From Quisquiliibacterium transsilvanicum (lineage in GTDB: Bacteria > Pseudomonadota > Gammaproteobacteria > Burkholderiales > Burkholderiaceae_E), in assembly GCF_014202215.1 (NCBI RefSeq), contig NZ_JACHGB010000009.1:1-64000 (forward strand): a DNA stretch of 64,000 nt, read 5' to 3'. The notes below the pieces were generated by a model, which worked only from the letters and a program-made list of their open reading frames with translations, searched no databases and was not told the DNA's origin. The number at the start of each line of letters is the position of its first letter. Position 1 is the first letter of the stretch. The translations under genes and the position numbers were made by a program. Below are positions 38,719 through 40,790 of the stretch, piece by piece.

Positions 38719-39777
38719 TCAGTCGACGATCACCAGCGGCTCGCCCATCTCCAGTTCGCCGATCACCGCCGCCGCCGCAAACCCGTCGCGCCGGAAGATC
38801 TCCAGCACCTCGTCCACGCTGGCCGGGTCGCAGGCCACCAGCAGCCCGCCGCTGGTCTGAGGGTCGGTGAGCAGCGCCTGTTCCACCGCGCCGATGCCGC
38901 TGCCCAGGCGCACGTCCGCGCCGTAGCCGGCCCAGTTCCGGCCGGAGGCTCCGGTGACGAAGCCGTCGGCGGCGAGGCGGGCGACGCCGTCGATCAGCGG
39001 CACCTGCTGCATCGAGATGCGCATCTGCAGGCGCGAGCCGCGCGAGATCTCGAGCGCGTGGCCCAGCAGCCCGAAGCCGGTGACGTCGGTCAGCGCGTGC
39101 ACGCCTTCCAGCGTCGACAGCGAGCGGCCGGAGACGTTCAGGCGGGTGGTGTTGTCGATCATCGCAGCGTAGCCCTCGGGGGACAGCGCTTCCTTCTTCA
39201 GCGCGGCCGACAGCACCCCCACGCCAAGGGGTTTGCCGAGGATCAGCTTGTCGCCGGCGCGGGCGCCGGCATTGCGCTTGAGGTTCTTCGGGTGCACCAC
39301 GCCGAGCACGACGAGGCCGTAGATCGGCTCGACCGAGTCGATGGTGTGGCCGCCGGCGATCGGGATGCCGGCGGCGGCGCACACCGACTCGCCGCCTTCG
39401 ATGATGGCGCGGATGGTCTCCACCGGCAGGCGGTCGATCGGCATCGCGACCAGCGCCAGCGCCATGATCGGCGTGCCGCCCATCGCGTAGACGTCGGAGA
39501 TCGCGTTGGTGGCTGCGATGCGGCCGAAGTCGTACGGATCGTCGACGATCGGCATGAAGAAATCGGTGGTGGCGACGATCGCCTGCTCGTCGTTGAGCTG
39601 GTAGACCGCAGCGTCATCGGCCGTCTCGATGCCCACCAGCAGCTGGGGCGGCACCGGGAAGCGGCTGCTGCTCTTGAGGATTTCGGCCAGCACGCCAGGG
39701 GCGATCTTGCAGCCGCAGCCGCCGCCATGCGAGAAGGAGGTGAGGCGGATGGGGGCGGGGGATTCGGGGGCGTTCAT
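38719..39777 (-). CDS. selD: Selenide, water dikinase (selenophosphate synthetase), SelD/SenC
   Basis: A 352-residue enzyme making selenophosphate from selenide and ATP. The N-terminal active-site motif SHGGGCGCK has Cys21 and Lys24 at the positions of E. coli SelD Cys17 and Lys20; there is no in-frame TGA, so it is the Cys form. Other matches are ETADDAAVY, TTDFFMPIVDDPYDFGRIAA and DPQTSGGLL. Its ATG overlaps the stop of the upstream SenB-type gene (ATGA). In selenoneine clusters such a SelD homologue is called SenC and feeds SenB. It could also serve selenocysteine or selenouridine synthesis; no selA or selB is in the window. Confidence 0.95.
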   Translation of the reverse strand: MNAPESPAPIRLTSFSHGGGCGCKIAPGVLAEILKSSSRFPVPPQLLVGIETADDAAVYQLNDEQAIVATTDFFMPIVDDPYDFGRIAATNAISDVYAMGGTPIMALALVAMPIDRLPVETIRAIIEGGESVCAAAGIPIAGGHTIDSVEPIYGLVVLGVVHPKNLKRNAGARAGDKLILGKPLGVGVLSAALKKEALSPEGYAAMIDNTTRLNVSGRSLSTLEGVHALTDVTGFGLLGHALEISRGSRLQMRISMQQVPLIDGVARLAADGFVTGASGRNWAGYGADVRLGSGIGAVEQALLTDPQTSGGLLVACDPASVDEVLEIFRRDGFAAAAVIGELEMGEPLVIVD

Positions 39778-40790
39778 GGGCGTTCCGTGTTGCGTCGAGC
39801 GGTGCTGCCGGCCGGGGCGGGCGCGGTGTCGGATGACACGAGATTATGCGCCAGCCGCCTGACCGCTGCCCTCTCCGCGGCCGGGTCGAACAGCGGCGCG
39901 CGCAGCGCGCACTGGGCGCGCAGATGCTGGAGGAAGGCCGGCTCGCGCTGGCAGCGTGCGATCAGCGCCGCGAGCCCGGCATCGTCGCCGGCCTCGAACC
40001 AGCCATCGTAGCCTGCGCCCAGCATGCCCACCGATCCCGGGATCCGCGACCCCAGCACCGGGATCCCGGCGGTCACCGCCTCGATCAGCACGTTGGCACC
40101 GCCTTCCATCAGGGAGGGCAGCAGCAGCACCCGGCCGCGCCGGATCATCTGGCGGGTACGGGCATGCGAAAGGGGGCCGAGCAGGCGCACCCGGGGATCC
40201 TCGGCGGCCGCGCGCCGGAAGGCCTCGCCGGTCTGCGGGTCGCGGTCGCTGCCGGCGTGCAGCAGGCGCAGCCGGTCGAAGGGCGGTTCGTCCGTGCGCA
40301 GCCGTTGCAGCGCCCGCAGCGCGGTCAGCGGGTCCTTCTCGGCCCGCAGGTGGCCCACCAGCAGCAGGTCGAAGCTGCGCGCCCGCGGCGTGCCCGGGCT
40401 CAGCGTGCGTGCGGACTGGAAGATGGTCTCGGTTCGCGCCCTCAGGTGCTCCGGCAGCTCGTCTGCGCCCCGCTCCTGGAGCACCACCAGCCGCTTCGCC
40501 AGCTCCAGCGAGCGGCGCGCCGAGGCGTCGTCGCGGATGTCGCGGTAGAGGTCGGTGCCGGTGAGCACCACCGCCACCGGCCCGCCCGCGGCGGCGAATC
40601 GCTCGATCGCCTCGGCGGAGCGGCGCGCATGCAGCGCGATCATCGCGTCCGCCGGGCGGCCATCCCATTGCCTGGCCACCTCCACGTCGAAGCCGGCGCG
40701 CAGGAAGCCGGACCAGCGCCAGGCGGTCTGCCAGTTGCCGTTGCGGTCGGCGGCGATGGCGGGGGAGATGATGAGGATGCGAGGGCGCAC
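39774..40790 (-). CDS. senB: SenB-type glycosyltransferase (TIGR04348 family), probable selenosugar synthase
   Basis: 338 residues with a GTG start. GT-B fold: N-terminal PRILIISPAIAADRNGNWQTA, ALHARRSAEAIERF, VVLTGTDLYRDI, LVVLQERG, and in the donor-binding half FDLLLVGHLRAEKDPLTA, LPSLMEGGANVLIEA and GSVGMLGAGYDGWF. This pattern is that of the TIGR04348 family, whose characterised member SenB couples selenophosphate with a UDP-sugar to give a selenosugar. The overlap with selD supplies the selenophosphate source. senA, which joins the selenosugar to hercynine, is not in the window. Recognition is by motif memory; a search would settle it. Confidence 0.85.
   Translation of the reverse strand: MRPRILIISPAIAADRNGNWQTAWRWSGFLRAGFDVEVARQWDGRPADAMIALHARRSAEAIERFAAAGGPVAVVLTGTDLYRDIRDDASARRSLELAKRLVVLQERGADELPEHLRARTETIFQSARTLSPGTPRARSFDLLLVGHLRAEKDPLTALRALQRLRTDEPPFDRLRLLHAGSDRDPQTGEAFRRAAAEDPRVRLLGPLSHARTRQMIRRGRVLLLPSLMEGGANVLIEAVTAGIPVLGSRIPGSVGMLGAGYDGWFEAGDDAGLAALIARCQREPAFLQHLRAQCALRAPLFDPAAERAAVRRLAHNLVSSDTAPAPAGSTARRNTERP

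Follow-up and report, generated by a model that had tools for sequence, protein, structure and literature searches.

Selenoneine is a known antioxidant, and the location of senA next to senB is the usual sign that the two genes serve one pathway. The stretch of DNA analyzed here (64,000 nucleotides; hereafter, the window) carries a senB gene overlapping a selenophosphate synthetase gene, with no senA in the window, and this raises the question of what the selenosugar expected from such a pair is for. The window lies on contig C9 of the Quisquiliibacterium transsilvanicum genome (G000), which comprises 4.26 Mb on 15 contigs and is 99% complete. The selenoneine pathway set out in PMC9814287 leads from SenC through SenB to SenA, and it is also described in those portions of the SenB papers PMC10891094 and PMC10702425 that deal with the route.

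The two genes lie on the minus strand. The first, senB (39774 to 40790), starts with GTG and encodes a 338-amino-acid Se-glycosyltransferase (selenosugar synthase); the second, selD (38719 to 39777), which would fill the role of senC, encodes a 352-amino-acid selenophosphate synthetase with a GGCGCKI stretch near its N terminus. Read directly from the bases of the minus strand, positions 39774 to 39777 are ATGA, comprising the senB stop codon (TGA) and the selD start codon (ATG), and this overlap makes translational coupling of the two genes probable. The SenB scored 388.6 bits against the TIGR04348 equivalog model, far beyond chance and above the curated cutoff of 300, and the SelD passed two equivalog cutoffs, with 544.2 bits for NF002098 (cutoff, 299) and 435.8 bits for TIGR00476 (cutoff, 125). 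The best PDB matches of the SenB (8k5u, 8jjq, 8jjn, and 8fbx; E values of 1e-75 to 1e-77) are named Se glycosyltransferase, TIGR04348 family glycosyltransferase, or SenB. An initial annotation, made from the bases alone, had assigned these identities, the ATGA overlap, and the motifs GNWQTA, LTGTDLYRDI, and SLMEGGANVLIEA; all are borne out, the motifs being present in the SenB translation.

That annotation had also held that a lack of SenB donor-site residues would speak against its reading. With the numbering and mutants given in the pertinent part of PMC10891094 for the Variovorax SenB, 14 of 16 functional positions are identical in the window SenB. These include all of the UDP-sugar and catalytic residues (N20, T23, K158, E231, and E239) and the whole selenophosphate pocket (N20, H58, R61, T83, T85, and R155). 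The four conserved UDP contacts named in the available portion of PMC10702425 (N20, R155, E231, and E239) are likewise all kept. Only V157 (Glu in the window SenB) and H235 (Asn) differ; position 157 is Glu in 79 of 79 aligned SenB rows, and the same part of PMC10891094 describes V157 and H235 mutants of the Variovorax enzyme as partially active. Judged by these families and residues, the window pair probably makes a selenium-bearing sugar.

A search of G000 with PF03781 yielded two EgtB/SenA-type proteins, one on contig C3 and one on contig C8. The C3 protein is a SenA, with 493.9 bits for NF041186 (cutoff, 420) against 209.6 bits for the EgtB model (cutoff, 360). Its PDB matches agree, with 400 bits to SenA 8k5i and 399 bits to 8ryz, compared with 126 bits to the best EgtB and 116 bits to OvsA. 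The C8 protein is an EgtB (580.3 bits; cutoff, 360). NCBIfam thus names the two PF03781 proteins SenA and EgtB, which bears on the question of an OvsA-type enzyme of the ovoselenol pathway. The only EgtD match in G000 (TIGR03438, 353.5 bits; cutoff, 290.9) is encoded on C3, 58 bases from senA and convergent with it. The window holds no senA, and no relic of one was detected there: the SenAs of relatives gave a best tblastn E value of about 0.5 (0.53), and PF03781 had no match on C9. The description of the module as lacking senA is therefore right for the window and wrong for the genome, where the possibility that senA lies elsewhere, also raised in the initial annotation, turned out to be the case. 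On C3 (L118), the senA-egtD pair stands amid several acyl-CoA ligase-like genes and an HsaA-like oxygenase gene, all below curated cutoffs.

The genome-wide search proposed with that annotation, for senA/EgtB, egtD, selA, selB, and selU, found every one. SelU scored 353.4 bits (cutoff, 219.75), SelA 570.3 bits (cutoff, 267.9), and SelB 357.3 bits (cutoff, 242.25), and a tRNA-Sec gene (83.6 bits; cutoff, 47) adjoins selA. The window selD is the only selD above the cutoff in G000. Given selA, selB, and tRNA-Sec, selU, and senB together with one selD, the single SelD plausibly feeds three selenium traits, which fits the earlier suggestion that it may also serve selenoproteins.

We consider it very likely that the selenoneine gene set of G000 is complete but divided between two places, that the window pair is its selenosugar half, and that the split goes back to a mixing of sen versions. 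From the genes, their families, and their key residues, we infer the following reactions and products. SelD would form selenophosphate, and SenB would join the selenium of selenophosphate to a UDP-sugar. EgtD would make hercynine, to which the C3 SenA would couple the selenosugar, and breakdown and reduction of the SenA product would give selenoneine. The same SelD would supply selenocysteine (through SelA, SelB, and tRNA-Sec) and selenouridine (through SelU). Against this reading stands the missing co-location, since senA (C3) and senB (C9) are on separate contigs and hence not clustered. Clustering of senA with senB is, however, a matter of organization that the chemistry does not require, and the bacterium most likely makes selenoneine with genes in two places.

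The two halves have different closest relatives. The SenB of G000 is 62 to 71% identical to the SenBs of G300, G301, G179, G102, and G240 and just 44 to 50% identical to those of G303, G305, G210, G264, and G181. For SenA the relationships are reversed, with 63 to 69% identity to the proteins of G264, G303, G210, G305, and G181 and 45 to 46% identity to those of G240, G102, and G179; the EgtD shares 74% of its residues with the G210 protein and 53 to 58% with those of G240, G102, and G179. In a quick SenB tree (79 rows from 80 chosen, G275 having dropped out, compared with 86 SenB genomes), the G000 protein joins G179 and G102 with a support of 90, not starred, and falls outside a 99-starred clade with G264, G181, and G210. 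In a quick SenA tree (41 rows with SenA scores above 200), it belongs to a 99-starred set with exactly G264, G181, and G210. Two sen versions occur within the genus. Both senB and senA of G303 and G305 belong to one type, near those of G264 and G210; the senBs of G300 and G301 are of the other type, near those of G000, G102, and G179, and the selD adjoining senB in G301 is 79% identical to that of G000. We infer that in G000 the senB-selD pair belongs to one version and the senA-egtD half to the other, and that the split probably arose by such mixing, whose manner and direction are conjectural. A relic of a second senB was not detected in the 20 kb around the C3 senA with the SenBs of relatives (best E value, 0.28).

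The arrangement of these genes was surveyed with profile cutoffs in a sample of 300 genomes of the order (Burkholderiales), of which 86 had SenB and 64 had SenA above the cutoff. Among the SenB genomes, 45 of 86 had SenA above the cutoff 28 to 328 bp from SenB on the opposite strand, and 12, including G000 and G210, had it elsewhere in the genome. G210 was rejected as a true split: both its senB and its senA begin at the end of a contig, 5' side facing outward, and share 91% and 88% identity, respectively, with their counterparts in G305, which are adjacent, so the separation is probably an assembly break. Among the matches listed, at least 9 of the 86 genomes had an EgtB/SenA-like match below the cutoff within 15 kb of SenB (two of these, G269 and G298, also had SenA above the cutoff elsewhere), and 20 had neither SenA above the cutoff nor a near match of this kind. 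Two of those 20, G163 and G288, do carry a SenA-like gene beside senB (that of G163 scores 334 bits for SenA and 155 for EgtB), which reduces the senA-less set to 18.

SelD was above the cutoff in 84 of the 86 SenB genomes (counted by eye) compared with 131 of the 214 others (Fisher's P of about 1e-12, with kinship ignored). The exceptions, G002 and G198, had no SelD match at an E value of 1e-30, for which an assembly gap is one option. SenA-like proteins below the SenA cutoff adjoin senB in G163, G288, G125, G228, and G198 (L107, L109, L100, L105, and L110). The two that were scored, 334 bits in G163 and 359 bits in G198, stand at about twice their EgtB scores, and the lineage probably consists of divergent SenAs missed by the model. 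Under the TIGR04348 cutoff, at 173 to 229 bits, lies a deep clade of SenB-like proteins (G017, G215, G064, G108, G184, G147, and G245, at L126 to L132) that keeps most key residues, with H235 replaced by Leu in seven of seven, H58 by Asn in three, and Q131 by Pro in one.

Within the genus, SenB was present in 7 of 10 genomes and SenA in 5, and senA adjoins senB in G240, G303, and G305. G301 (90% complete, 510 contigs) has a senB-selD pair like that of G000 and G300 (77% complete draft) has senB, both with no SenA match at an E value of 1e-50; either the pair may manage without SenA in near kin, which counts somewhat against the split-pathway reading of G000, or the drafts are incomplete. In G102 and G179, of the same family, the senB-selD and egtD-senA pairs are about 50 kb apart.

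In the senA-less set, defined by neither SenA above the cutoff nor a SenA-like gene adjoining senB, each of the 18 genomes has SelD above the cutoff. The senA-less calls rest on drafts and HMM cutoffs, and any SenA that has diverged beyond the reach of PF03781 and NF041186 would have escaped them. EgtD was present in G277, G286, G062, and G271, the last with a SenA model match (384.6 bits; cutoff, 420) that is probably a SenA. It had no match at an E value of 0.001 in the other 14 (G043, G014, G261, G182, G088, G273, G243, G095, G050, G201, G187, G106, G028, and G069). A selA or selU, if encoded in these genomes, would account for their SelD. The SenBs of these 14 keep N20, T23, T83, T85, R155, K158, E231, and E239 in every case, with R61 replaced by Lys in one. 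By simple counting, dN/dS was 0.20 to 0.27 in five pairs from this set, three of them within one trio. Two pairs whose genomes carry senA or a SenA-like gene gave 0.12 and 0.36, and a mixed pair gave 0.19. The state without SenA and EgtD is scattered on the quick SenB tree, where it requires eight changes, at least five of them forced by starred branches; the changes may be gains or losses.

Candidate partners for these SenBs were considered. OvoA was rejected as a general one: a two-domain OvoA above the cutoff occurs in just 6 of the 14 genomes (G014, G182, G273, G243, G201, and G028), and SenA model scores at the OvoA level are also common in genomes without SenB (as read, uncounted, from the matches listed), so OvoA is no general explanation. 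The G182 protein scores 955 bits against a solved OvoA and 84 against OvsA. Among the remaining eight genomes, G095 and G106 had no PF03781 match and G043, G261, G088, G050, G187, and G069 had shorter proteins. The PvdO/FGE-like proteins of G050, G187, G028, G088, and G043 were likewise rejected as hidden SenAs, as none had a SenA score near the cutoff; they score 111 to 172 bits with the PvdO model (cutoff, 500), and the best solved matches of the G050 protein are formylglycine-generating enzymes. No conserved partner enzyme was recognized beside SenB among the 18 senA-less loci. In 10 of the 18, SenB sits inside a shared backbone with no selenium meaning seen, represented in three annotated loci by HDOD, MotA, MotB, CopD-like, RNase HII, LpxB, and rRNA methylase genes.

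A scan of named genomes added 62 SenB loci, mostly from Burkholderiales genera, with some titled Proteobacteria, Gammaproteobacteria, or similar. Fifty-two of them extended 1.6 kb or more upstream and 1.2 kb or more downstream, and a SenA match (tblastn with three SenA queries at an E value of 1e-10, within the locus only) was found in 28 of the 52 and in none of the other 24. The gene order egtD, senB, selD occurs in 18 of these 24, from Rhodoferax, Curvibacter, Hylemonella, and other bins. In L178, a putative selenate ABC transporter (L178:6101-8750) lies divergent from the cluster, its neighboring gene encoding the substrate-binding protein (TIGR04553, 412.3 bits; cutoff, 250), and a relative of SelD-associated oxidoreductases (TIGR03169, 262.5 bits, below the cutoff of 310) lies downstream. 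Related ABC genes (clusters d3, d7, and d10) are divergent from egtD-senB-selD or senB-selD in other senA-less loci, TIGR04553 having been applied to L178 only. The SelD open reading frames downstream of senB in L197, L199, L203 (762 amino acids), and L186 (723 amino acids) are about twice the normal length, which by length alone suggests a fusion. In one Rhodoferax bin, a same-strand open reading frame of 486 amino acids between egtD and senB (L200:8482-9942) looks by eye like a flavin monooxygenase.

In G000, where senA is present, there is no call for the suggestion that the selenosugar is an end product or feeds some undescribed route; for the 14 genomes with SenB and SelD and with neither SenA above the cutoff nor an EgtD match, it may hold. 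It is possible, though on balance doubtful, that selenosugar formed by SenB and SelD serves a biological purpose besides selenoneine, that several betaproteobacterial lineages lost or never had senA and egtD but retained senB and selD, and that G000 has both uses; the selenosugar of the senA-less lineages would then feed some acceptor enzyme or be used itself. Quite unlikely is the proposal that G000, too, makes the selenosugar or a derivative as a separate product alongside selenoneine. The 14 of 86 SenB genomes in question, their eight retained residues and dN/dS values, the repeated changes on the tree, and, within the genus, the senB-selD pair of G301 without a SenA match all speak for it, but G000 has the selenoneine genes, nothing in G000 calls for another product, and no conserved new partner enzyme was recognized near the senA-less SenBs. 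Least credible of all is that the C3 gene encodes an ergothioneine-type synthase, with senB a leftover and selD serving selenocysteine and selenouridine only. Genes for both traits are present, and senA does not share a contig with senB, but the C3 protein passes the SenA cutoff and falls well short of the EgtB one, G000 encodes an EgtB (580 bits) besides, and the senB reading frame is intact, overlaps selD, and keeps its key residues.

Under the split-pathway reading, G000 is ordinary, with a known pathway at two sites and of mixed ancestry. A false lead is thereby removed: a senA missing beside senB does not mean that selenoneine is missing, and gene-cluster mining will consequently overlook split pathways. 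What is left is a short list of genomes of the order with SenB and SelD and with neither SenA nor EgtD detected, which is worth following; should the SenBs there prove to form selenosugar, one more selenometabolite pathway would become directly testable.

In the open literature on SenB, selenosugar, selenoneine, ovoselenol, and TIGR04348, no listed title or abstract dealt with senB without senA; two key Kayrouz papers lie outside that scope, so this silence is weak evidence of novelty. Orphan SelD and selenium genes are discussed in PMC5322559 and PMC5029168, in the relevant parts of which this glycosyltransferase does not appear as a trait, and the excerpt of PMC13188914 contains only a mention of selenoneine and ovoselenol.

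Among known systems, the ovoselenol pathway (OvsA and OvsM), compared here through PDB names and brief mentions, is likewise a second selenometabolite route with an EgtB-like enzyme, but the C3 enzyme scores 400 bits against SenA and 116 against OvsA. The egtD-senB-selD loci of Rhodoferax, Curvibacter, and Hylemonella (L178, L204, L206, and others) resemble G000 in having senB-selD without senA in the locus; there, however, egtD is upstream of senB, whereas in G000 it is beside the distant senA. The selD-senB-senA-egtD clusters of G254 and G264 contain the same four families, and senA converges with egtD there just as it does on C3, but their senA is head to head with senB, while in G000 the senA-egtD half stands alone. 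The Variovorax paradoxus senA/senB/senC cluster, as presented in PMC9814287 and in the corresponding parts of PMC10891094 and PMC10702425, shares with G000 a senB accompanied by a selenophosphate synthetase gene and the SenB key residues, and SenA and EgtD are encoded in the G000 genome as well. Unlike in that cluster, the G000 senA is on another contig and of another lineage than senB, selD is the sole copy, and genes for selenocysteine and selenouridine are also present.
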